In this document: in pieces, positions 2,966 through 62,645 of the stretch
Position numbering within the stretch: position 1 is the first letter of the stretch
Layout of the letters: every line of letters begins with the position of its first letter
Assembly: GCA_003223135.1 (NCBI GenBank)
Contig: QHXX01000018.1
Location: 1-64,000, forward strand
Source: Acidobacteriota bacterium
GTDB lineage: Bacteria > Acidobacteriota > Polarisedimenticolia > Gp22-AA2
Direction: 5' to 3'
Length of the DNA stretch: 64,000 bases
Notes under the pieces: generated by a model
Seen by the model: the letters and a program-made list of their open reading frames with translations, nothing else
Database searches by the model: none
Told to the model about the DNA's origin: nothing
Made by a program: the position numbers and the translations under genes

Positions 2966-5900
2966 GTGTACACGGGTCTTGGATCGTCCGTTCTCCGTAC
3001 CCGGCTCGTCGTTCTGACCGTCGCCGGTCTGCTGCTCGTCCTCGGGCGGGCATCGGCCCAATCGACCCCGGCCAGCGACCCGCTGGTCTTCCCGGGGGGT
3101 TTCCTCGAGACCGCGACGACCGGCGTGGTGCGGCCGCGGCTGGCGCAGTCGGTGCTGCAGGCGCTTTTGCCCTCGCGCGGCCTGTTCACCTTTCCCGCAC
3201 CTTACAACACCAGCGCCATCCGCCTCACCAACCCCACCGACTGCGGCGGCTCCGACTGCGTGTACTCCGTCGGTTACTCCTACTACCGCAACATCAACAA
3301 CCACGTCGGCAGCGACGAGATGCTCATCTTCCTGGGGCTCGACCGCTCCCGGGGCGGCGGCGGCCCGACCCTGTTCCGCTACAACAAGCTCACCGACCAG
3401 GTCACCAACGCCGGCCCTCTGTTCGACCCCGCCAGCCCTCTGAGCTTTCACAGCGGCGAGGGCTGGTACTTCAGCGGCACCCAGCCGACCAAGATTTACC
3501 TCAACAGCGACTCGCGCATGCTGCGCTACGACGTCCTCACGCACCAGCTCGAGACGGTCTTCGACGTCGCCCCGCAGTACGGATCCGACAAGTACATCTG
3601 GCAGATGCACTCGAGCGACGACGACCGGGTCCACTCCGCCACGCTCAGGACCAATCCGACCTATGAGATGCTCGGGTGCGTCGTCTACAAGGAAGACACC
3701 CGGCAGTTCTCCTACTTCCCGAAGCTGGGAGATTTCGACGAGTGCCACGTCGACAAGAGCGGCCGCTGGCTGGTGATCCTGGACAACGTGGACCGGCTGT
3801 ATGACGTGGAGATGCGCATCATCGATCTGACCACCAACACCGAGCGGATGGTCTGGGATCAGGATGGAGCGGCTGCCCACCTGGACACGGGGTACGGCTA
3901 CCTCGTCGGGGCCGACAACTGGAACCCTCTGCCCAATGCCGAGCTGCTCTGGGACTTCACCAAGGACCCGCTCTCGGGCCGCATGGTCTGGCACACCCTG
4001 GACTGGTCGGCCGCCGCGCCCAACCACATCGCGCACGGCAATGCCCGGCCGGGCGTCCCCGCCGCCCAGCAGTATGCCTGCGGCAGCGGCGCTTCGCGCG
4101 TCGACGCCCCCTGGGCCAACGAGATCATCTGCTTTCCGCTCGACGGATCCCTGCGGGTCCTGGTAGTCGCTCCCGTCATGACCGACCTGAACGCCCCGGG
4201 CGGCGGCGACGACTACACCAAGTTCCCCAAGGGCAACCTCGACGTCACCGGACAGTACTTCATCTGGGCCAGCAACATGGGCGGCAGCCGCCTCGACGCC
4301 TTCATCGTCAAGGTGCCCTCGCAGGTGCTCATGGGCGGGGCCTCCGACACGACGGCACCGTCGATTTCGATCACCGCCCCGACCACCGGTTCGACCGTCG
4401 GCGGATCGATCACGGTCTCGGCGAGCGCGTCTGACAACGTCGGCGTGGCCGGTGTCCAGTTTCGCCTGGACGGGGTGACCCTCGGCGCCGAGGACACCGC
4501 GTCGCCCTACGCCGTCTCCTGGACCACGACGGGCGCCGCCAACGGCTCCCACACCCTGACCGCCGTGGCCCGCGACGCCGCGGGCAACTCGACGACAGCG
4601 GTTGCGACCCCCGTCACCGTCGCGAACGGCGACGTCACCCCTCCGCTGATCTCCGCCGCCCAGGCGTCCGCCGTCTCCTCCACCGGAGCCACCGTCACCT
4701 GGACGACCAACGAGTCCTCCGACTCGCAGGTCGAGTATGGCCAGACCACCGGCTACGGGACCAGTACGCCCCTGGGCACGGCGATGACCACGTCGCACGG
4801 CCTGAGCCTGGCGGGCCTCTCGCCGGCCACTCTCTGCCACTATCGCGTGAAGTCCAGAGACGCCGCCGGCAACCTGGCGACCTCCGGTGACTTCACCTTC
4901 ACTACACTGCAGCCGACGCCGCCCCCGCCCGCCACGGGCCCCATCGCCTATTGGAAGCTCGACGACGGGAGCGGCACCCTGGCCGCCGACTCTTCCGGCA
5001 ACGGCTTCAACGGCACCCTCGTCAACGGTCCCGCCTGGGTCGCCGGCAGGATCGGCCAGGGCCTCTCCTTCGACGGCGTCGATGACTACGTCGACGTCCC
5101 GAGCGCTCCGGCTCTCGACACCTTCCCGCTCACGCTCGCGGCCTGGGTCAAAACCACTGACACCGGCCTGCACGGTGTCGTCAACAAGTACCTCCCCGCC
5201 TCCCTCAACGGCTACCAGGTCTTCATCAACGGCGGCAGCCTCTGTGCGTGGTATTTCAGGGATGCCTCCAACTACGTCTGGGACGGCACCGGCTGCACCC
5301 TGGCCACCCCGGGGTTCACCGATGGCGCGTGGCACCACGTCGCCTTCGTCGTGGACGCCGCGGGCGGCAGATTGTACGTGGATGGCGTGCAGAAGGCCGC
5401 ACGCGCCTGGACCGGCACCGCCGGCGCCACCTCGACGACCGCCGGCCTCAGCCTCGCGCGCTACCCAGGGAGCGCAGCGCCCTACTTCCCGGGCGCTCTT
5501 GACGAGGTGCGTCTGTACAACCGCGCCTTGAGCGCGAGCGAGGTCGCGGGCCTGGCCATCATCGACACCACCGCTCCGATCATCTCGGCGGTCTCGGCCA
5601 CAAATCTTACGTCCTCCGGGGCGACCATCGCCTGGACGACGAGCGAGACCGCTGACACCCAGGTCGAGTTCGGTCCGACGACGGCCTACGGGGTCTCGAC
5701 GCCGCTGAGCGCCACGCTCCTCACAGGGCACTCTCAGCCATTGAGCGGGCTGGCATCCGGCACCGTTCAGCACTACCGGGTGAAGTCACGCGACGCCGCC
5801 GGCAGCCTCGCCGTCTCGGGGGACTTTTCCTTCACGACCCTGGCGGCCAGCCCGGCGCCCCCCGGCAAACGCAAGCACGGTCGTCCCCTCAGCTACTGGA

Positions 5901-6520
5901 AGCTGAACGATGCCTCCGGCACGAGCGCTTCGGACGACTCCGGAAACGGCTTCACCGGCGCACTCGTCAACGGCCCTGCCTGGTCCACCGGTGTCCTCGG
6001 CGGCGGCCTGGAGCTGGACGGCCTCGATGATTACGTCGAGGTCCCGCACGACGCGAGCCTCGATCCTTACCCCCTGTCGATCGTTCTCTGGGTCAGAACC
6101 GGGGCCACCGGCCTGCACGGCCTCGTCAACAAGTACCTCCCAGGCTCCCTGAACGGTTACCAGATCTTCATCAACTCGGGCAACCTTTGCGCCTGGTACT
6201 TCAGGGACGCCTCCGACTACGTCTGGGACGGCACCGGCTGCACCCTCATGACGCCCGGTGTGACGGACGCCCTCTGGCACCACGTGGCTCTCGTCGTGGA
6301 CGACTCGGGCGGCCAGCTGTACGTCGACGGTGAACTGCAGGCAAGCCACGAGTGGATGGGGACGCCCGGCGCCGCGACGACCACGACCAACCTCCGATTC
6401 GGGCTCTACCCGGGCGTGGCCACGCCGTTTCTTCCGGGCACGATCGACGACGTCCGCCTCTACGCCCGCGCCCTCAGCGCCGACGAGGTCGCCGGCCTGT
6501 ACTCCGGGGCGGCGCGCTAG
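2966..6520 (+). CDS. Large secreted protein: beta-propeller-like N-terminal part, Ig-like domain and two FnIII-LamG units
   Basis: This 1184-residue protein has a GTG start placed 7 bases after GAGGTGG. A signal peptide (RTRLVVLTVAGLLLVLG, probable cleavage after ASAQ near residue 32) precedes about 420 residues of beta-rich sequence that may be a propeller. Then come an Ig-like domain (about 464-555), FnIII (555-650), LamG/concanavalin-like lectin domain (658-865), FnIII (866-962) and a second LamG domain (971-1184). The two FnIII-LamG units are close copies of each other (shared GLHGVVNKYLP-type and SNYVWDGTGCTL-type segments). No anchor or sorting signal is seen at the C-terminus. LamG domains bind or enclose glycans, so adhesion or matrix binding is plausible. 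That fits control by the c-di-GMP riboswitch upstream. No catalytic motif was recognised. Confidence 0.8.
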   Translation: MYTGLGSSVLRTRLVVLTVAGLLLVLGRASAQSTPASDPLVFPGGFLETATTGVVRPRLAQSVLQALLPSRGLFTFPAPYNTSAIRLTNPTDCGGSDCVYSVGYSYYRNINNHVGSDEMLIFLGLDRSRGGGGPTLFRYNKLTDQVTNAGPLFDPASPLSFHSGEGWYFSGTQPTKIYLNSDSRMLRYDVLTHQLETVFDVAPQYGSDKYIWQMHSSDDDRVHSATLRTNPTYEMLGCVVYKEDTRQFSYFPKLGDFDECHVDKSGRWLVILDNVDRLYDVEMRIIDLTTNTERMVWDQDGAAAHLDTGYGYLVGADNWNPLPNAELLWDFTKDPLSGRMVWHTLDWSAAAPNHIAHGNARPGVPAAQQYACGSGASRVDAPWANEIICFPLDGSLRVLVVAPVMTDLNAPGGGDDYTKFPKGNLDVTGQYFIWASNMGGSRLDAFIVKVPSQVLMGGASDTTAPSISITAPTTGSTVGGSITVSASASDNVGVAGVQFRLDGVTLGAEDTASPYAVSWTTTGAANGSHTLTAVARDAAGNSTTAVATPVTVANGDVTPPLISAAQASAVSSTGATVTWTTNESSDSQVEYGQTTGYGTSTPLGTAMTTSHGLSLAGLSPATLCHYRVKSRDAAGNLATSGDFTFTTLQPTPPPPATGPIAYWKLDDGSGTLAADSSGNGFNGTLVNGPAWVAGRIGQGLSFDGVDDYVDVPSAPALDTFPLTLAAWVKTTDTGLHGVVNKYLPASLNGYQVFINGGSLCAWYFRDASNYVWDGTGCTLATPGFTDGAWHHVAFVVDAAGGRLYVDGVQKAARAWTGTAGATSTTAGLSLARYPGSAAPYFPGALDEVRLYNRALSASEVAGLAIIDTTAPIISAVSATNLTSSGATIAWTTSETADTQVEFGPTTAYGVSTPLSATLLTGHSQPLSGLASGTVQHYRVKSRDAAGSLAVSGDFSFTTLAASPAPPGKRKHGRPLSYWKLNDASGTSASDDSGNGFTGALVNGPAWSTGVLGGGLELDGLDDYVEVPHDASLDPYPLSIVLWVRTGATGLHGLVNKYLPGSLNGYQIFINSGNLCAWYFRDASDYVWDGTGCTLMTPGVTDALWHHVALVVDDSGGQLYVDGELQASHEWMGTPGAATTTTNLRFGLYPGVATPFLPGTIDDVRLYARALSADEVAGLYSGAAR

Positions 6521-6564
6521 CGCTCCGTCCGGGTTCTACCGGGTCCGCGTCGTCGGCGCGCGGT

Positions 6565-6964
6565 TCAGCGGCCCGCGCGTGTGAAGAGCGCGACGCCCGT
6601 CCTGAATTCATCCTCGATCACTCGAACGGGTGCGTGTCCGGCCGCTGCCAGATGGGCGAACAACCGCTCTCTCGAGTGGCCCAGGTGCGCGGGGACCTCA
6701 TGGTATTCGAGGTTGATCTTCCTGATGCGCCGCAGCACCGGGAGAGGGGTCGCGAGGAGGGTCTCGTGCTCTGATCTCCTCGGTGCTCTCGAAGCGGAAG
6801 CGAACGCCGTCGCGCAGCCTGACGTCGTACGGAAACGACGGCGAGGCCATTCCGAGATAGCGTAGCGACAGATCGAGCCAGTCGCCCGCGTGACGGTACG
6901 CGCCGACGATCTCAGGAAGACGGTGGAGATTTTTCAGCAGCCGAGTGGTCTGGCAACCGTCCAT
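6565..6964 (-). pseudogene. Remnant of an FkbM-family SAM methyltransferase (middle missing)
   Basis: The minus strand from 6964 encodes an FkbM-like N-terminus (DWLDLSLRYLGM, then LRDGVRFRFESTEEI). At about 6771-6776 the frame changes, and the next frame encodes a good FkbM C-terminus (SEHETLLATPLPVLRRIRKI, then INLEYHEVPAHLG) down to the TGA at 6565. The central Rossmann part with the SAM-binding site, probably more than 100 residues, is absent. Either the gene decayed by deletion, or the window has a closed assembly gap here as suspected in other genes. Its start overlaps the tail of the adjacent methyltransferase. Confidence 0.68.
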
Positions 6965-8012
6965 GCCCACCCCGCCGAAAGACCTGGTCCCTGCCCTGCC
7001 CGGCGCGTGGCGAAACCGCCGGAACGGGTCCACCAGGAAGGCTCGAGACCTCGGGAAGCGTGGCGTCCCGCGCCGGGCGGACGCCCCGCACGCGGATCGG
7101 GTCGTCGAATACGGTGATGTCCGTGAAGCCACAGGCTCGAAACCAGCGAACCACTTCCGGATACAGGAATTTCCATTGATGCTTCGGCGTGTACCAGTCG
7201 AACGTGTCGAGCCAGCGCCATCTCCAATTGGGATGCTGAGAGATCGAAAGAAAGACCCGGAGCACCTTGCCCACGATCGGCAGCCGATAGACGTAATGCG
7301 CAGGGACCGAGAGCGAGCTGAGCCAGAACATCAGCGGGAGGGGGAGCCGAGTCGTCACGCCGCGAACGAGCTCGGAGCAGGCGCGGGGCAGGCGCGGCCC
7401 GTATCCCGCATAGAGATAGACCGCCAGGCCTCCTTCCTTCTTGACCACGGCCGCCACCCGGTCGAACGCCGCGCGCGGATCGGGCGTGTGGTGCAGGACG
7501 CCGATCGAGTAAGCGAGATCGAACGCCCCTTCGCGAAAGGGCATGTGAAACAGGTCGGCCTGGACCAGATGGACACGGTCCCTGCGGCCGATATTGACGA
7601 AGGCCGCGTCGATGGCCCGTGAGAGATCGACCCCCACGACCTCGCCACCCTTGTTCGCGACGATCTCCGCGAACCGCCCGGCACCGGCACCGGCATCGAG
7701 CACAAGGCGACCCTGATAATCGGCGTCCTGCCAGCCCGTCGTGTCGCCGAGCGTGTTCTCTGATTCCTTCGTCCCGTTCAAGGAGTCGAGCTGGACCGTC
7801 CGAAACCAGTTCCACTGACGGCCGAAGCTCGAGGCATAGGAGTCATCCGCCACGAAGCGCGGGACGCCGTCCCGAATCGGATACGTGGCCGGACAGGCGA
7901 CGCAGGACAGGCTGCCCTGCATGATTTCGTTCCCCTCCGCACGCTCCACACCGGGCGTGAGGTCGGCCTTGCATTCGGGGCACGCAAGAATCCGGACGAC
8001 TTCACGTTTCAT
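6912..8012 (-). CDS. Class I SAM-dependent methyltransferase with Trm112-like zinc-ribbon N-terminus
   Basis: This 366-residue protein starts MKREVV at 8012. Cys11, Cys14, Cys37 and Cys40 form a Trm112-like zinc ribbon. The methyltransferase fold follows with LDAGAGAGRF (motif I), GVDLS (acidic end of strand 2) and SIGVLHHTPDP (motif IV region). Similar proteins occur in polysaccharide and glycolipid clusters and act on small molecules or sugars; the substrate here is unknown. The last roughly 55 residues after DPIRVRGVRP look like read-through of non-coding sequence and overlap the FkbM remnant, so the natural C-terminus may have been altered. The start codon overlaps the stop of a small upstream ORF (ATGA). 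Confidence 0.8.
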   Translation of the reverse strand: MKREVVRILACPECKADLTPGVERAEGNEIMQGSLSCVACPATYPIRDGVPRFVADDSYASSFGRQWNWFRTVQLDSLNGTKESENTLGDTTGWQDADYQGRLVLDAGAGAGRFAEIVANKGGEVVGVDLSRAIDAAFVNIGRRDRVHLVQADLFHMPFREGAFDLAYSIGVLHHTPDPRAAFDRVAAVVKKEGGLAVYLYAGYGPRLPRACSELVRGVTTRLPLPLMFWLSSLSVPAHYVYRLPIVGKVLRVFLSISQHPNWRWRWLDTFDWYTPKHQWKFLYPEVVRWFRACGFTDITVFDDPIRVRGVRPARDATLPEVSSLPGGPVPAVSPRAGQGRDQVFRRGGHGRLPDHSAAEKSPPSS

Positions 8013-52317: not shown

Positions 52318-53118
52318 ATGGGACGGATCGTCGCGATCGCCAATCAAAAAGGGGGAGTGGGCAAGACGACGACCGCCGTCAGCCTGGCGGCCGCGCTCGC
52401 CATCGCCGAGCGATCGACCCTTCTGATCGACATGGACCCGCAGGCATCCTCGACAAAGGGCCTGGGACTGAAGCCGAACCCGGGCGGCGAAATGTACGGC
52501 GTGATGTCGGGCGAAGTGCGCGTCGAGCAGATTCTCCTGCCGACCGAGCTGGAGTTCCTCACCGTCGCCCCGGCAAGCCGCGATCTCGTCGGCATCGAGG
52601 TCGAGCTCATCAACGTCAAGGGGAGGGAGTATCGTCTGAAGGAGGCGCTCGCGTCCATTCGTGATCGCTTCCAGTACGTCCTGGTGGATTGCCCTCCTTC
52701 ACTGGGCCTTCTGACCGTCAATGCACTGGCCGCCGCGGACGGAATCCTGATCCCGGTCCAGTGCGAATACCTGGCGCTCGAGGGGGTGTCCGAGCTGGTG
52801 GAAACGCTCTACCGGATTCGCGCCTCGGTCAACGAGGCCCTGGAACTGGACGGCGTTCTCCTGACCATGTACGACGAGCGCACCAACCTGTCCCGTCAAG
52901 TGGTGGCCGACATCCGTTCTTTCTTCAAGGAGCGGGTCTTCCGGACGATTGTTCCGCGTAACGTCAGACTGGGGGAGGCTCCCAGCTTTGGCAAGCCGAT
53001 CATGCTCTACGACATCCGCTCCAAGGGGTCAGAGTCGTACCTGAACCTGGCCCGGGAGGTCATCAGACGCTATGAAAAGACAGGCGCTCGGCAAAGGACT
53101 GAGCAGCCTCATCCCTGA
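52318..53118 (+). CDS. parA: Chromosome partitioning ATPase ParA (Soj)
   Basis: The 266-residue protein begins MGRIVAIANQKGGVGKTTTAVSL with the deviant Walker A, followed by LLIDMDPQASSTKGLG and DYVLVDCPPSLGLLTVNAL-like motifs (YVLVDCPPSLG is present). NVRLGEAPSFGKPIMLYD is typical of chromosomal Soj proteins. It moves ParB-bound origin regions. The parB start lies inside its last 47 bases. Confidence 0.96.
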   Translation: MGRIVAIANQKGGVGKTTTAVSLAAALAIAERSTLLIDMDPQASSTKGLGLKPNPGGEMYGVMSGEVRVEQILLPTELEFLTVAPASRDLVGIEVELINVKGREYRLKEALASIRDRFQYVLVDCPPSLGLLTVNALAAADGILIPVQCEYLALEGVSELVETLYRIRASVNEALELDGVLLTMYDERTNLSRQVVADIRSFFKERVFRTIVPRNVRLGEAPSFGKPIMLYDIRSKGSESYLNLAREVIRRYEKTGARQRTEQPHP

Positions 53119-53938
53119 AGCGTCCCAGCCGGCCGACGCGGGTCTCCTGCTGCTGGACGTCAGGCGAATCCAACCGAACCGCTACCAGCCCCGCGTTGAC
53201 TTCGGCAGACTGGAGGGGCTGGTGGAATCGATCCGGGAGAACGGTATCGTCCAGCCGGTCATCGTGAAACAGGAGGGCGACGGGTACCGCCTCATCGCGG
53301 GAGAGCGCCGCTGGCGCGCCGCCCAAATCGCCGGCATCGAGCGGATCCCGGCCATCGTCAAGAAGGTCTCCGACGACCGCCTCCTCCAGATCGCCTTGAT
53401 CGAGAACATTCAAAGGAAGGATCTCAACCCGATCGAGGAGGCAAGAGCCTACGAGGTCCTCCTGAGCGATCTGAAGTTGTCCCATGCGGAAGTCGCGAAG
53501 CGTGTCGGGCGGGATCGATCTTCAATATCTAACTCATTGAGATTATTGAGGTTATCAGACAGAGTGCAGGGGCTCATCAGGGAGGGAAGCCTGTCGCTGG
53601 GACACGCCAAGGCGATCATGGCAATTCCCGACGCCGCGACACAAATTAAGGTCGCCGAAGAGGTGGCCCGCGACCTGCTCTCGGTCCGCGAGACCGAGGA
53701 ACGCGTGGCCGGTCTTCTGGGGCAAGCCCGCAAGAGAGGACGGAGGGCGCCGCAGACTCGGACCACAGCCGGGGACCCGAACGTCGAGGCCGCGGCCGAC
53801 CGGCTGACGCGTGCTTTGGCCACGAAGGTCCGGATCGTCAAGAGGGAGGAGGGGGGCAGAATCGAGATCGACTTCTACAGCGACGAAGAGTTGCAACGAC
53901 TCTACGAGTTCCTGGTGACCGCGGAGAAGGGCCATTGA
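53072..53938 (+). CDS. parB: Chromosome partitioning protein ParB (Spo0J)
   Basis: This 288-residue protein begins KRQALGKGLSSLIPE, the ParA-stimulating N-terminal peptide. It has the CTP-binding GERRWRAAQIAG box, IALIENIQRKDLNPIEEA, the helix-turn-helix LSHAEVAKRVGRDRSSISNSLRLLRL that reads parS, and a C-terminal dimer domain. A short stretch around 53520-53560 is AT-rich but in frame. It overlaps parA by 47 bases. Confidence 0.96.
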   Translation: MKRQALGKGLSSLIPEASQPADAGLLLLDVRRIQPNRYQPRVDFGRLEGLVESIRENGIVQPVIVKQEGDGYRLIAGERRWRAAQIAGIERIPAIVKKVSDDRLLQIALIENIQRKDLNPIEEARAYEVLLSDLKLSHAEVAKRVGRDRSSISNSLRLLRLSDRVQGLIREGSLSLGHAKAIMAIPDAATQIKVAEEVARDLLSVRETEERVAGLLGQARKRGRRAPQTRTTAGDPNVEAAADRLTRALATKVRIVKREEGGRIEIDFYSDEELQRLYEFLVTAEKGH

Positions 53939-53984
53939 CCGGGCCCGCCGCAGGGGAGCGGAAAAGATGAAGGGAGGATTCGTC

Positions 53985-54431
53985 ATGCCGTTCAGCAAGG
54001 ACGCCTTGCTCAAGGACCACGTGGGCCAGGATGACATCAGCGGCTTTCTGGCGGAGGGCACGGAGATCCACGGAGAGGTGCGTTTTCGTGACGTCCTCCG
54101 CGTCGACGGGAAGATCACCGGCAAGGTGATCTCGGAGAAAGAGCTGGTCATCGGTGAGTCGGGCGACGTCGAGGCCGACGTGGACGTCGGGGTCCTGTCG
54201 GTGAGCGGCAAGGTGACCGGCACCATCCACGTCAAGGAAAAGCTGGAGATTCACCCAACCGGCCGCGTCATCGGCGATCTGACCCTGGAAAAGCCCAACC
54301 TGGTGATCCACGAGGGTGGCGTGTTCGAGGGGAACATCGATATGAACGCCGAGAAGAAGAAAGACGCGCGCGACGCCGCCCACAAGGAGGCGGAGATCGA
54401 ATCGATAAGGCGGCACAGTTCGACGAACTGA
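53985..54431 (+). CDS. Bactofilin-family cytoskeletal protein
   Basis: The protein is 148 residues long from ATG 53985, chosen because GGGAGGA sits 7 bases upstream; an earlier ATG at 53967 would add six residues. The core is the repetitive beta-helix of bactofilins: EGTEIHGEVRFRDVLRVDGK, ISEKELVIGESGDVEADVDV, SGKVTGTIHVKEKLEI, TGRVIGDLTLEKPNLVIHEG. The tail is charged. Bactofilins next to parAB bind or organise the ParABS system in Myxococcus-like bacteria; the same may hold here (inference). Confidence 0.9.
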   Translation: MPFSKDALLKDHVGQDDISGFLAEGTEIHGEVRFRDVLRVDGKITGKVISEKELVIGESGDVEADVDVGVLSVSGKVTGTIHVKEKLEIHPTGRVIGDLTLEKPNLVIHEGGVFEGNIDMNAEKKKDARDAAHKEAEIESIRRHSSTN

Positions 54432-54490: not shown

Positions 54491-55042
54491 TCAGTAGGAC
54501 CCCGGCTCCGGCGGCGGTTCCTGAGCCTTCCCGGTCGAACGGGGGTCCATCCCCACACCTTCGCGCAATTCGTAGTGCACCCGGTAGGCCCGGCCACGTT
54601 TCACCTCGAATTTCACACGCAGTGTCTGGTAACCCCGATAGCCGAGGTCCAGCTCGTGTGTCCCCGCCTTCAACCACAGAGGGTAGGCCCGCGAATTGAA
54701 GTCCCGGGCCTGGCCCACCACAGTGCCGTCGACGATCACGGTGGATTTCCGGGGGCGGACGTGTAACTCCACCGGCGCCGCGTTGCGCGGCGGGATCTGG
54801 GCGTAGCCGTAGCCGGGGGACGGTCCATACGAGTAGGACAGGCCCCACCCGAAACCGGAGTACCAGAAGGGATCCCAGAAGAATGGATCGACGAATGCCG
54901 GCCTGACGACGACCACCTGCTGCCGGACGACCCCGGGGCTCCGGACAGCGCTCCTGCCGCCGGCGGTGGCGCCGGTGGTTGCCAGGAGCAGCAAGGGGGC
55001 GAGCGCCAGCGCCAGCCTTGTGTGCTGTCGCGCGCGTCGCAT
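54491..55042 (-). CDS. Secreted PEGA-domain protein
   Basis: The protein is 183 residues long from ATG 55042 with AAAGGAGGTG upstream. A signal peptide (LALALAPLLLLATTGATAGG) is followed by an aromatic/Gly/Pro-rich spacer (FVDPFFWDPFWYSGFGWGLS) and a PEGA-type domain (VELHVRPRKSTVIVDGTVVG, LKAGTHELDLGYRGYQTL). PEGA domains are found in envelope proteins of many Gram-negatives; the function is unknown. It converges with the bactofilin gene; the 60-base gap holds a GCGGAGG/CCTCCGC hairpin without T-tract. Confidence 0.78.
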   Translation of the reverse strand: MRRARQHTRLALALAPLLLLATTGATAGGRSAVRSPGVVRQQVVVVRPAFVDPFFWDPFWYSGFGWGLSYSYGPSPGYGYAQIPPRNAAPVELHVRPRKSTVIVDGTVVGQARDFNSRAYPLWLKAGTHELDLGYRGYQTLRVKFEVKRGRAYRVHYELREGVGMDPRSTGKAQEPPPEPGSY

Positions 55043-55505
55043 CGCCACACCTCCTTTCGTAGACCGGGCGCTGCGGCGGTTCCGAGCGAGGGGCCGCCGC
55101 GCGACCCGGCGACAATGCCATACACCGGTCTGAATGAGCAACCGTCATGCCAGAAAGCCACGCCGGCCCTTCGCTCGGGAGCTGCGTCTGCATGGGCCGA
55201 ATGAGGGGGAAATCCTCGACTTGGCCGCCTCCACCGTAGAGCGGAGCCTGCGTCGCCTTGATTCTGTCCCCCGCCACGTACGAAGTGACCTCGGATGCAC
55301 GCCGGAATGGCGCGGTATGTGTTCGGGCGGCGTGTCGCTAACCCGCGCCGTCGTTGACACTTCGATGGAGCGTGTGTTACTTTGCGTCGTTCACGAAACG
55401 TTCCCCCGGCGGCTCCACGGGCATCAGGCGGTCGCGGGGTTTTTTGATGCCTCCCGGCGTCCTTCCAGTCCCGGCCGCCGGTCCATCCCTGTCGGGAGCG
55501 CAAGA
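55043..55505. other. Upstream region of the ATP synthase cluster
   Basis: About 460 bases between the divergent PEGA gene and atpH. Open sequence in the atpH frame continues upstream but has no family match, so it is treated as non-coding. It contains a probable promoter at 55354-55382 and nothing else recognised. Confidence 0.45.
55354..55382 (+). promoter_or_regulatory. Putative promoter of the atpHAGDC operon
   Basis: A perfect TTGACA (55354-55359) is followed after 17 bases by TTACTT (55377-55382), a poor -10. It lies about 120 bases ahead of atpH. Confidence 0.42.
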
Positions 55506-56087
55506 GTGCAACCAGTCGCCGTGGCGAGGCGGTACGCGCGGTCCCTCGCGGACCACGTCGAGACAAAGCCAGCCAAGCCTGCCGAGACCGCAAAACGAGA
55601 TCCATCGCGCCTCGAGACGGCGGCCTCGGAGCTGGCGCTCGTCGTTCGCGTCCTGGGCGCCGATCCGAGGATTGGGCGCTTCTTCGCGGACCCGTCGATC
55701 CCGCAAAAGAACAAGCTGGCCGCGATCGAGGCCATGTCGCGCAAGGCCAGGCTGAGCGAGGCGACGCGCAGCTTCCTGCGGGTCCTGGCCATCAATCGGC
55801 GCCTGGGTGCGCTGGTCTCAATCCGGCGGGCCTTCGAGGAGATCAAGGACGAGCGCCTGGGGGTCGTGCAGGCGGAGACCACCACGGCGGTGCCGCTGTC
55901 GGCGGCGGAGCTGACGCGCCTGCGCGATGCGCTCGAGACGCTAACCGGGCGCACTGTGAGGATCAGGCATCAGGTTGATCCGGCCCTTCTGGGCGGCGCG
56001 CGCACGCGAATCGGGTCCAGGGTCTACGACGGGACCCTGAGGCACCAGCTCGAAGCCCTGCGCCAGCGGCTGGTCGGGGCGCACTGA
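55506..56087 (+). CDS. atpH: ATP synthase F1 delta subunit
   Basis: The protein is 193 residues long from a GTG at 55506 with GGGAG upstream. It has [12 protein letters not shown] at the start, [19 protein letters not shown] and [23 protein letters not shown] in the middle, and the C-terminal [39 protein letters not shown]-type end ([19 protein letters not shown] visible). It links F1 to the peripheral stalk. The b, c and a subunit genes that usually precede it are absent. Confidence 0.92.
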
Positions 56088-56112: not shown

Positions 56113-57639
<1,527 letters not shown>

Positions 57640-57667: not shown

Positions 57668-58579
57668 ATGGCCAACGTCCGCGACTACCGCACCCGCATC
57701 CGCAGCGTCAAGAGCACGCAGCAGATCACACGCGCCATGAAGCTCGTGTCGGCGTCCAAGCTGCGCCGCGCTCAGGACCTTATCCTGGCCGCAAGACCCT
57801 ACGCCCGTAAGATGCTCGAGGTGCTGTCGTCCCTGGCGGCGCGCGCCCACCCGGACCGGCACCCGCTCTTGCAACGGCGCCCCGAGGAAAAGGTCCTGGT
57901 CGTCGTGGTCACGGCCGACAAGGGGTTGTGCGGCTCGTTCAACACCAACATCGTCAACGGGGCGCGTGCCTTCCTGGACGAATTGCTGGGACGGTCGGGG
58001 TCCACGGCCGGGCCACGGCCAACGCACCAGGTCCAGGTGGACATCGTCGGACGCAAGGCCCGCGACTGGTTCCGTCGCCGCGACTACCCCGTGCGCCGCG
58101 TCCTGGTCGACCTTTTCAGGGATGTGACGCTCGAGGACGCACGGGACATCGCGTCGAACCTCATCGAAGGCTTCTCGGGCGGCGAGTTCGACGGCGTCCA
58201 CCTCGTGTACAACGAGTTCAAGTCGGTCATGCAGCAGCGAGTCGTCAGGGAGACCCTCCTGCCGATCCCGCGGGCCACCTTTGGGCCCGGCGCGTTTACG
58301 GCGAGCGCCGGCGCCCAGCCCGAGGACTACATCTACGAGCCGGACCAGGAGGCGCTGTTCGCGGCGCTCCTGCCCAAGCACGTGATGATCCAGGTGCATC
58401 GCGTGCTCCTGGAGTCGGCGGCTGCCGAGTACGGCGCGCGCATGACCGCCATGGAGAACGCCACGCGCAACGCCGGCGAGATGATCGATTCCCTCACGCT
58501 GCAGATGAACAAGATTCGCCAGGCATCCATCACCAAGGAAATCCTCGAGGTGGTGAGCGGCGCCGAGGCGCTCAAGTAG
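57668..58579 (+). CDS. atpG: ATP synthase F1 gamma subunit
   Basis: The protein is 303 residues long, slightly above the usual 285-290. N-terminal YRTRIRSVKSTQQITRAMKL and C-terminal RMTAMENATRNAGEMIDSLT form the coiled-coil rotor shaft. The central Rossmann-like part has VVVTADKGLCGSFNTNI. An insertion around residues 110-125 (RSGSTAGPRPTHQ) explains the extra length. The next gene on the same strand is not an atp gene but a PH-domain protein. Confidence 0.95.
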   Translation: MANVRDYRTRIRSVKSTQQITRAMKLVSASKLRRAQDLILAARPYARKMLEVLSSLAARAHPDRHPLLQRRPEEKVLVVVVTADKGLCGSFNTNIVNGARAFLDELLGRSGSTAGPRPTHQVQVDIVGRKARDWFRRRDYPVRRVLVDLFRDVTLEDARDIASNLIEGFSGGEFDGVHLVYNEFKSVMQQRVVRETLLPIPRATFGPGAFTASAGAQPEDYIYEPDQEALFAALLPKHVMIQVHRVLLESAAAEYGARMTAMENATRNAGEMIDSLTLQMNKIRQASITKEILEVVSGAEALK

Positions 58580-58603: not shown

Positions 58604-59308
58604 ATGAGAACGCGCCTGAGGCCGGGGGAAGAGCTGGCGGCGGTGGTGCGCCGGCACGTCATCGTGCTGGGGGGCCCCTTCGCCGTGACGCTGTTCCTGG
58701 CCGGGTGCCTGATCGGCGCATGGTGGGTCAAGAGGCCTTACGTGCTGCCCGCGGTCGGGATGGCCCTGGCCGTTTCGGCGGCGTGGGCGTCCTGGCGCTG
58801 GCTCCACTGGCGGAGCGACCTCTGGGCGGTCACGTCGCAGCGGGTGATCGACGAGTCGGGTGTTTTGTCGGTGCGCGCAGAGGACAGCCCGCTCGACAAG
58901 ATCAACAACATCATCTGTACTCAGTCGCTCTGGGGAAGGATGCTCGGTTACGGGGCCTTGAGCATCCAGACCGCCGCGGAGGTCGGGTCGACCACCCTCG
59001 AGACGGTCGCCCGTCCGATGGACCTGAAGGAGACGATCCTGGAGCAGCAGGAGAAGGCCAGGCACCACATCGCGGCCCGCTACGCTGCGCCCTCCTTGGC
59101 GGCCGCGGGCCAGGGTCTCATCGTCCCGCCCGGCGGATCCATGGGGGTGATCGCGGGGACGGCGAGTGTGAACCCGGCTGGCGTCACACACGCGGGCCGG
59201 ACGACGTCGGACGCGGCGCGGGACGATACGAAGGAGTGCCCGTATTGCGCGGAAACGATCAAGTCGCGGGCGAAGGTGTGCCGCTTCTGCGGCCGGATCC
59301 TCCGATGA
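58604..59308 (+). CDS. Membrane protein with bacterial PH domain (bPH2/YdbS-like) and C-terminal zinc ribbon
   Basis: The 234-residue protein has two hydrophobic helices (about 22-42 and 45-64), then a bPH2 domain (about 68-145: WAVTSQRVIDESGVLSVRAE, SPLDKINNIICTQSLWGRML, GYGALSIQTAAEVGSTTL). A Gly/Ala linker leads to a C-terminal zinc ribbon CPYCAETIKSRAKVCRFCGR with two CxxC pairs. Function is unknown. It stands between atpG (24-base gap) and atpD (76-base gap) on the same strand, so it is cotranscribed with ATP synthase genes, an unusual place for this family. Confidence 0.83.
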   Translation: MRTRLRPGEELAAVVRRHVIVLGGPFAVTLFLAGCLIGAWWVKRPYVLPAVGMALAVSAAWASWRWLHWRSDLWAVTSQRVIDESGVLSVRAEDSPLDKINNIICTQSLWGRMLGYGALSIQTAAEVGSTTLETVARPMDLKETILEQQEKARHHIAARYAAPSLAAAGQGLIVPPGGSMGVIAGTASVNPAGVTHAGRTTSDAARDDTKECPYCAETIKSRAKVCRFCGRILR

Positions 59309-59357: not shown

Positions 59358-60800
<1,443 letters not shown>

Positions 60801-60809
60801 GGACGAACC

Positions 60810-61238
60810 ATGCCGCTTCCCGAATCGATCCATCTGGAGGTCGTGACGCCCGAAAGGCGCCTGGTCAGCGAGGTCGTCGACGAGGTGATCCTGCCCGGCA
60901 GCGAAGGCTCGCTCGGCGTCCTCCCCGGCCACACCCCGCTTCTGACGACGCTGGGCATCGGAGAGCTGGTGTACCGGAGGGGCGGCGACAGGCGCTACGT
61001 GGCGATCGCCTGGGGGTTCGCCGAAGTCCTGCCGGAGCGGGTCAGCATCCTGGCTGAGATCGCCGAGCGCGCCGAGGGGATCGACCGGGAGCGTGCCGCG
61101 GCGGCCCGCGACCGCGCCCTCAGGCGCCTGCGCGAGCGCGCCGCGGAGACCGACTTCGTCCGCGCGCAGGCCGCGTTGCAGAAGGCGATCATCCGCTTGC
61201 AAGTGAGCCAGGGGATCGGGCCGAGCGAGCCGTCCTAG
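60810..61238 (+). CDS. atpC: ATP synthase F1 epsilon subunit
   Basis: The protein is 142 residues long. The N-terminal beta-sandwich shows HLEVVTPERRLVSEVVDEVI, LPGSEGSLGVLPGHTPLLTTL and RYVAIAWGFAEVLPERVSIL; the C-terminal helical hairpin carries RAAAARDRALRRLRERA. Normal length. It is the last atp gene, 9 bases after atpD. Confidence 0.94.
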   Translation: MPLPESIHLEVVTPERRLVSEVVDEVILPGSEGSLGVLPGHTPLLTTLGIGELVYRRGGDRRYVAIAWGFAEVLPERVSILAEIAERAEGIDRERAAAARDRALRRLRERAAETDFVRAQAALQKAIIRLQVSQGIGPSEPS

Positions 61239-61317: not shown

Positions 61318-62106
61318 ATGCAGGTGCGACCCCGTCTCTCGATCGTCATACCCGCCTTCAATGAAGCGGCGCGCATTTGTGGAAGCCTCGAGGCGGTCGT
61401 GCGCCACTTCGCCCGGTCGGGTGAAGACGTCGAGGTTGTCGTCGTGGATGATGGCTGCACCGACGCCACGGTCGAGACGGTTGCGCGCTTCGCCGCCGAG
61501 CGGCCACCGCAGGGCCGCGTCACGATCGGTGTGCTGCGCAACGGCCGGAACCGCGGCAAGGGATACAGCGTCAAGCACGGTGTCCTGATGGCGCGTGGCG
61601 ACCTGGTCCTGATCTCGGATGCCGACTTCTCCACTCCGATCGACGATCTGCCGCTTCTCCTCCAGGCGGTGGAGAAGGAGGGATACGGCATCGCCATCGG
61701 CTCGCGTGCGCTGGAAGATTCGCGCGTGGAGATCCGACAGGCCGCGTGGCGGGAGATGATGGGGCGTGGCTTCAACCGGCTGGTGCGGCTGCTGACCGGT
61801 CTGCATTTCAGGGACACCCAGTGCGGATTCAAGCTGGTGTTGAGGCAGGAGGTGCTGCCGCTGTTTCGCGCCGCCCGCGTCGAGCGCTTCGCCTACGATG
61901 TGGAGATCCTGTATCTGGCGCGCAAGGCGGGTGTGCGGGTGCGTGAAGTGCCGGTGCGCTGGCGCAACGCGGAGGGGACGAAGGTGAGGGCATGGGCCGA
62001 TTCGTTCGACATGCTGAAGGACACCGTGCGGATCGTCCTGCGGGACCGGCTGGGCCGCTATGGCCGACTGGGCGGGGAACCGGCCCGGGCCGACCGGAAG
62101 GCATGA
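61318..62106 (+). CDS. Family 2 glycosyltransferase (dolichyl/polyprenyl-phosphate sugar synthase type)
   Basis: The protein is 262 residues long. GT-A fold with LSIVIPAFNEAARICGSL, VVVVDDGCTDATVETV, NRGKGYSVKHGVLMARGDLVLISDADFSTP (DAD metal motif), GSRALEDSRVEIRQ and DTQCGFKLVLR. This pattern is that of Alg5/dolichyl-phosphate glucosyltransferase-like enzymes, which load a polyprenyl phosphate with a sugar at the membrane. No transmembrane helix is present. GAGGATC precedes the ATG. The next gene overlaps by four bases. Confidence 0.88.
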   Translation: MQVRPRLSIVIPAFNEAARICGSLEAVVRHFARSGEDVEVVVVDDGCTDATVETVARFAAERPPQGRVTIGVLRNGRNRGKGYSVKHGVLMARGDLVLISDADFSTPIDDLPLLLQAVEKEGYGIAIGSRALEDSRVEIRQAAWREMMGRGFNRLVRLLTGLHFRDTQCGFKLVLRQEVLPLFRAARVERFAYDVEILYLARKAGVRVREVPVRWRNAEGTKVRAWADSFDMLKDTVRIVLRDRLGRYGRLGGEPARADRKA

Positions 62107-62645
62107 GCATGCCCACCCGGGGGTCGCGTCGGGAGAGTCCGGCGGTGGACCGGCCGGCGATACGACGCGGGACGAAGATCGTGTCGGCGCCGCGGGCCGC
62201 CGCCCTGGTGCGCCGCCTGCAGGCTCACGGGCGCGCGGTGGTGTTCACCAACGGCTGCTTCGATCTGCTTCACGCCGGGCACGTCGCTCTTCTCGAAGCG
62301 GCGCGCAACCTGGGAGACTTCCTGGTCGTCGGTGTGAACACGGACCGGTCGGTGCGCCGCCTGAAAGGTGCGGGCCGGCCGATCGTTCCCCTCGGTGAGA
62401 GAATGGAGGTCCTGGCGGCCTTGCGGCCGGTCGACTCTGTCGTGCCGTTCGGCGAGCCGACGCCGGCCCGGCTCATCGCCCGGCTGCGCCCGGACGTGCT
62501 CGTGAAGGGGTCCGACTACCGCACGAAGCGGATCGTCGGCCGCGACACCGTGGAGGCCCGGGGAGGCCGCGTGGTGACGGTGCCTTTGCGGCGCGGCCTC
62601 TCCACCACCGACCTGATCCGCCGGGCGCTGCGGTCCGCCGGCTGA
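62103..62645 (+). CDS. rfaE2: RfaE2-type D-glycero-beta-D-manno-heptose 1-phosphate adenylyltransferase
   Basis: The protein is 180 residues long from the ATGA overlap with the glycosyltransferase (a second ATG is two codons later). It has VVFTNGCFDLLHAGHVALLE (nucleotidyltransferase HxGH), GVNTDRSVRRLKGAGRPIVP, RPDVLVKGSDY and GGRVVTVPLRRGLSTTDLI. This is the stand-alone C-terminal half of HldE. It activates heptose for LPS core, which implies an outer membrane. The N-terminal extension of about 35 residues is poorly conserved. Confidence 0.9.
   Translation: MSMPTRGSRRESPAVDRPAIRRGTKIVSAPRAAALVRRLQAHGRAVVFTNGCFDLLHAGHVALLEAARNLGDFLVVGVNTDRSVRRLKGAGRPIVPLGERMEVLAALRPVDSVVPFGEPTPARLIARLRPDVLVKGSDYRTKRIVGRDTVEARGGRVVTVPLRRGLSTTDLIRRALRSAG

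Follow-up and report, generated by a model that had tools for sequence, protein, structure and literature searches.

A membrane PH-domain protein gene with a zinc-ribbon motif, held between atpG and atpD in one family of Acidobacteriota

The locus described here raises the question of why a membrane protein gene lies inside the F1 cluster of an ATP synthase, and whether its product serves that enzyme. In the window (the whole 64-kb stretch of DNA that was analysed), the F1 genes run on the + strand in the order atpH-atpA-atpG-[PH/zinc-ribbon gene]-atpD-atpC, that is, delta-alpha-gamma-[gene]-beta-epsilon. Pfam identified the neighbours as F1 delta (atpH, delta/OSCP, 55521..56087, with the start inferred from the Pfam match), gamma (atpG, 57668..58579), beta (atpD, 59385..60800) and epsilon (atpC, 60810..61238) subunits, and atpA (alpha, 56113..57639) was assigned from its sequence and its relatives. 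The open reading frame at 58604..59308 (+) begins with ATG, encodes 234 amino acids, starts 24 nt 3' of the atpG stop, and is followed 76 nt after its own stop by the ATG of atpD, which is where the first-pass annotation had placed it. That annotation had also considered atpG and atpD to be nearly always adjacent, a rule that has to be tempered, as a published survey lists five lineages in which the genes are split at the gamma/beta junction (PMC4154653). None of the open-licence PMC papers searched described a PH gene placed in the atpG-atpD spacer.

Upstream of the F1 cluster lie ParA, ParB and bactofilin genes (52318-54431), which are conserved neighbours in several genomes of this family and its sister family, and a PEGA-domain gene (54491-55141, -) is located between bactofilin and atpH, a place that it occupies only in G002 among the compared relatives. 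Downstream, a glycosyltransferase gene and an RfaE2-like gene (61318-62645, both named by eye) are likewise conserved neighbours in several genomes of both families.

The predicted protein has the two membrane helices and the bPH2 domain that had been attributed to it. Residues 69-134 (58808..59005, +) matched bPH_2 (PF03703) with an E-value of 1.3e-11 and 45 bits against a cut-off of 22, and the hydropathy profiles of 6/6 family members each had two hydrophobic peaks, around residues 28 and 54. We obtained an AlphaFold2 model from 20 homologous sequences, having set aside a first, poor model from 6 sequences (pLDDT 55.5), and its pLDDT exceeded 90 across most of residues 1-160. In this model, PH strand 1 (residues 11-17) is followed by a hairpin of two helices, the predicted first (residues 19-39; 58658..58720, +) and second (residues 47-71; 58742..58816, +) membrane helices, and then by strand 2, the remaining PH strands and a long C-terminal helix, so that the modelled fold extends the Pfam core by strand 1 and by a helix that starts at residue 138. 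The best Foldseek matches were the bacterial PH domains 3dcx and 3hsa (E from 1.7e-4, for 3dcx_B, to 2.4e-3). VIA-align gave Z scores of 8.5-8.8 against these structures, tied with several eukaryotic PH domains, and the superposition on 3hsa_B had a Z of 8.8 and an rmsd of 2.5 over 96 aligned residues, suggesting that the bPH_2 region, as modelled, adopts the PH fold. A search of solved structures by sequence returned nothing meaningful (best E 0.13), and NCBIfam had no match for the 234-residue protein.

Beyond the PH domain, a variable linker (residues 151-208; 59054..59227, +) with a mean pairwise identity of 32% leads to the motif CPYC...CRFC (residues 209-231; 59228..59296, +). The zinc ribbon assigned here at first pass is present as a C-terminal CxxC...CxxC motif, although the ribbon models UPF0547 and Zn_ribbon_3 matched residues 209-230 at 22-23 bits, under their cut-offs of 29 and 27. 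The UPF0547 score was 22.6 bits, and Cys 212, 215, 226 and 229 were nonetheless invariant in 6/6 full-length family members. Linker and ribbon were modelled at low confidence (block-mean pLDDT 38-58 from residue 171 on), and we treat the putative ribbon as a motif call only. Taken as a whole, the protein belongs to a known family, in which the C-terminal ribbon is the less usual part.

We then considered whether the arrangement is peculiar to this genome, using an order sampled by 12 genomes: the window's own family, f1 (G000-G007), made up of uncultured Acidobacteriota, and a sister family, f2 (G008-G011). The gene was found in seven f1 genomes (G000-G006) belonging to three genera, and all 7/7 f1 genomes with a family-type atpG carry it directly 3' of atpG; atpD follows directly in six of these, and the contig ends in the seventh. 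In the eighth f1 genome (G007, 63% complete), neither the gene nor atpG nor atpD was found. The first-pass annotation had named occurrence in this genome only, or absence from close relatives with a normal operon, as evidence against a lineage-specific role, and within f1 neither was found (7/7 testable genomes). One level up, all 4/4 sister-family genomes lack the gene, contain no bPH_2 protein and have a normal atpG-atpD gap of 34 nt, so the description of the gene as lineage-specific was right. Because it is present in 7/7 testable f1 genomes and absent from 4/4 f2 genomes with the 34-nt gap, we conclude that the gene is a lineage-specific insertion, kept under purifying selection as described below. 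The copy linked to the atp genes is the sole bPH_2 match (E<=0.001) in each of six f1 genomes, including the window's own genome (92% complete), which has a single match; G003, in which the gene is cut early in the domain, and G007 gave no bPH_2 match.

The spacing of the two flanking genes reflects this insertion. In the six f1 genomes where one contig carries both, atpG and atpD are 680-808 nt apart, while in the 60-genome set all 41/41 adjacent pairs outside f1 are separated by 25-139 nt (median 37). This survey covered 46 atpD matches outside f1, of which 41 had an adjacent atpG and five did not (second copies in G039 and G025, plus G050, G049 and G012, where atpD is at the contig start and the end of atpG is visible just before it), and it leaves out nine of the 60 genomes, including G007, whose atpD failed the threshold of E 1e-150. 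The gaps around the gene are 6-31 nt after atpG (seven f1 genomes) and 13-76 nt before atpD (six genomes), spacers into which a separate promoter or terminator would hardly fit; the gene is thus probably co-transcribed, and its product made, with F1. A consensus scan of the + strand found no promoter or terminator of the gene's own, which is weak evidence in a GC-rich genome.

An assembly or annotation artefact has to be weighed at this point, as the named sources are metagenome-assembled genomes and, in one relative (G003), a second F1 contig of chimeric appearance lacks the gene. On this contig (C248, stretch L045), an f1 atpG-atpD pair is separated by 36 nt with no insert; its atpA and gamma are 67% and 41% identical to those of the window and atpD diverges in its first part, whereas its remainder, atpC and the downstream genes are family-like. 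On another contig of the same genome (C143), the cluster is of the family type and includes the gene, of which the first 84 codons precede the contig end. We read C248 as a chimeric contig joined inside atpD; it could conceivably be a real recombined or second operon, and would then be the sole counter-case in f1. However, seven assemblies agree on the insertion, and for four of them there are named public records that stem from different projects, so that an artefact is highly improbable. In a further genome of the family, G004, atpD (otherwise 93% identical) was matched in two frames (L046, about 2122-2126), probably through an assembly error.

The evolutionary rates of the gene were compared with those of its neighbours. 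Pairwise dN/dS (NG86) among the six full-length copies was 0.26-0.59, higher than for atpD (0.09-0.18) and atpG (0.19-0.40) and in the same range as for atpH (0.28-0.74); as dS was high (0.59-1.0), these values are rough. A chance open reading frame was ruled out by the conservation in seven genomes together with these ratios. The median dN/dS of the parts (15 pairs) was 0.15 for the zinc ribbon, 0.35 for the PH domain, 0.47 for the N-terminus and helices and 0.74 for the linker. By these part-wise ratios, purifying selection is strongest on the ribbon and the PH domain, and both are retained. A recent foreign origin was rejected, GC3 (0.90-0.95) resembling that of the neighbouring genes; the gene may still be an old transfer.

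Persistence in one place could also reflect a chance insertion whose position brings no benefit, with a useful gene carried along in a region that is seldom rearranged. The downstream flank (atpC, the glycosyltransferase and the RfaE2-like gene) is indeed syntenic between the window and 5/5 insert-bearing relatives whose stretch extends that far, and the gamma/beta joint is the known break point noted in the survey cited above. However, the upstream flank changes, both in the PEGA gene and in the G001 stretch, where ParB and bactofilin were not found upstream, and the slot stays constant. This constant slot with its short gaps, set against a changing upstream flank, hints at more than hitch-hiking, and we consider a purely passive association improbable.

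Homologues outside the family bear more directly on function. A profile of six f1 proteins matched 75/396 Acidobacteriota genomes at E<=1e-6, many through just one of the two parts, ribbon or PH. The nearest homologues outside f1 are in four genomes of family f66: those of G303 and G338 have both bPH_2 and ribbon (the G338 gene runs off its contig), and those of G172 and G324 have bPH_2 without a ribbon. In a tree of 19 rows, midpoint-rooted for drawing only, f1 and f66 formed a clade with support of 98/99, and the f1 sequences grouped together with 92/90. The f66 homologues adjoin non-atp genes, and atpG and atpD are about 45-60 nt apart in 4/4 of these genomes. That the nearest homologues lie away from atpG-atpD argues against an obligate ATP-synthase role. 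More broadly, membrane proteins that combine bPH_2 with a SHOCT tail or an N-terminal zinc ribbon occur repeatedly across Acidobacteriota (for example in stretches L053, L069 and L078). No atp genes were matched near other bPH_2 proteins in stretches L053, L054 and L080-L086; in stretch L055, atpD-atpC lies about 4 kb from a bPH_2 gene. A PH/zinc-ribbon open reading frame near a contig edge in G025 was rejected as a parallel case, its neighbour resembling a beta-lactamase/transpeptidase (by eye) with no meaningful atp match. Two other features were seen in these comparisons: an Anaerolineales protein (L038, 3314-5077) in which an N-terminus resembling a cyclic-nucleotide-binding domain precedes two hairpin-PH units (by eye), and a second beta subunit gene in G303 (L102, G303:C8), 51-52% identical, for which an N-type ATPase is a guess.

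The remainder of the ATP synthase was surveyed as well. The F0 genes lie apart from the F1 cluster on another contig, where AtpZ comes first and is followed by a short membrane open reading frame, atpB, atpE, atpF and an aroB-like gene (named by eye); by gene content the f1 enzyme looks complete. The protein was rejected as a stand-in for a missing F0 subunit, atpB and atpF being found in 7/7 f1 genomes (G000-G006) and atpE also being visible by eye in G000, G002, G005 and G006. It was likewise rejected as a replacement for AtpZ, PF09527 being matched in G000 and in the sister-family genome G008 (the other F0 stretches were judged by eye only). In the window's own genome, atpB (L087, G000:C129, about 4790-5401) lacks about 60 internal residues and has a frame change, and the aroB-like frame after atpF (same contig, about 6185-7465) repeats a stretch of about 45 residues; both are probably assembly errors.

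These data allow a dedicated role to be weighed, in which the protein would be a membrane docking or assembly factor that binds nascent F1 and brings it to F0. The gene lies inside the ATP synthase cluster and is conserved in its lineage, as would be expected of an accessory gene. The slot between gamma and beta is invariant in testable genomes, with beta translated next; the intergenic gaps are tight and the protein is the only bPH_2 protein per genome; and, with the F0 genes on another contig, the F1 cluster encodes no other membrane protein. A precedent for such a mechanism exists in plant CGL160, whose soluble part is reported to bind the CF1 beta subunit and whose membrane part helps F0 formation (PMC9806626). 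In alignments, the f1 gamma subunits also have two longer loops than those of f2. However, these loops vary in both length and sequence within f1, unlike a conserved binding site, and a co-evolving docking site in gamma or epsilon was rejected on the same alignments, which show only variable-length loops. Furthermore, the f2 ATP synthase, with a beta subunit 75-80% identical, works without the gene, same-architecture homologues in f66 lie away from any atp genes, both families possess AtpZ, the usual accessory gene, and no known ATP-synthase factor profile (Pfam, NCBIfam) matched the protein. On balance a dedicated role is possible but unlikely. Its most specific form, in which the PH membrane protein would act as an F1 receptor that captures beta or gamma during translation and docks F1 onto F0 made from a distant locus, resembling CGL160 but built from unrelated parts, is more doubtful again.

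We favour instead, with a probability of roughly 0.58, that a YdbS-type membrane adaptor has been captured by the operon and is co-expressed with it, having a general role rather than being a dedicated part of the ATP synthase. The general adaptor ranks above the dedicated role, which comes next, because the homologues are unlinked and the sister enzyme lacks the gene; the constant slot and tight gaps count for the dedicated role. A YdbS-type gene would have been inserted once at the gamma/beta joint in the f1 ancestor, and would now be a fixed member of the F1 cluster. Its product most likely resides in the inner membrane, with the PH domain and the ribbon on its flexible linker predicted to be cytoplasmic; the hairpin would hold the PH domain close to the bilayer, and the linker would carry the small zinc ribbon. 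Because a membrane hairpin, a PH domain and a linker-borne ribbon form the layout of an adaptor for protein partners, we infer that the protein may bind other proteins in a general envelope or membrane-protein role. What counts against an adaptor-only reading is the unchanged slot in three genera while the upstream PEGA gene varies.

Many bacteria have membrane bPH_2 proteins, yet a function has been assigned to few of them, and a bPH_2 gene that is fixed within so well understood an operon points to a specific candidate partner. If the link to F1 is true, the protein would count as a factor of ATP-synthase biogenesis confined to this lineage; if it is false, the locus would be a clear case of an unrelated gene captured by a highly conserved operon.

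Among known systems, AtpI/AtpZ and CGL160 are likewise membrane proteins tied to ATP synthase, and AtpZ too is encoded with its genes. The window protein, however, has no PF09527 match (Pfam, E<=1), and AtpZ stands separately, beside the F0 genes, in both families. The PF08000 bacterial PH domains (3dcx, 3hsa) share the PH fold, but the window protein has no PF08000 match; PF08000 proteins form rings, and Xu et al. propose that oligomers of membrane PHb proteins may serve as transporters or pores and are sceptical that PF08000 domains bind membranes directly (PMC2817789). With the Acidobacteriota bPH_2 proteins of the L053/L069/L078 type, the protein has the hairpin-plus-PH core in common, whereas their accessory domain is a different one (SHOCT) or their ribbon is at the other end. 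In the YdbS/YdbT pair, a multi-bPH_2 YdbT-like protein is the neighbour, whereas here the neighbours are atpG and atpD and there is no second bPH_2 match at E<=0.001. A leaderless bacteriocin (enterocin) is no longer exported when either DdE or DdF, PH-domain membrane proteins that the authors liken to YdbS and YdbT, is deleted (PMC8657885). To the YdbS-type proteins themselves (B. subtilis YdbS and E. faecalis DdE, from the same source), the window protein is related by two membrane helices and one bPH_2 domain, and it differs from them by its putative C-terminal zinc ribbon and its place in the F1 cluster.
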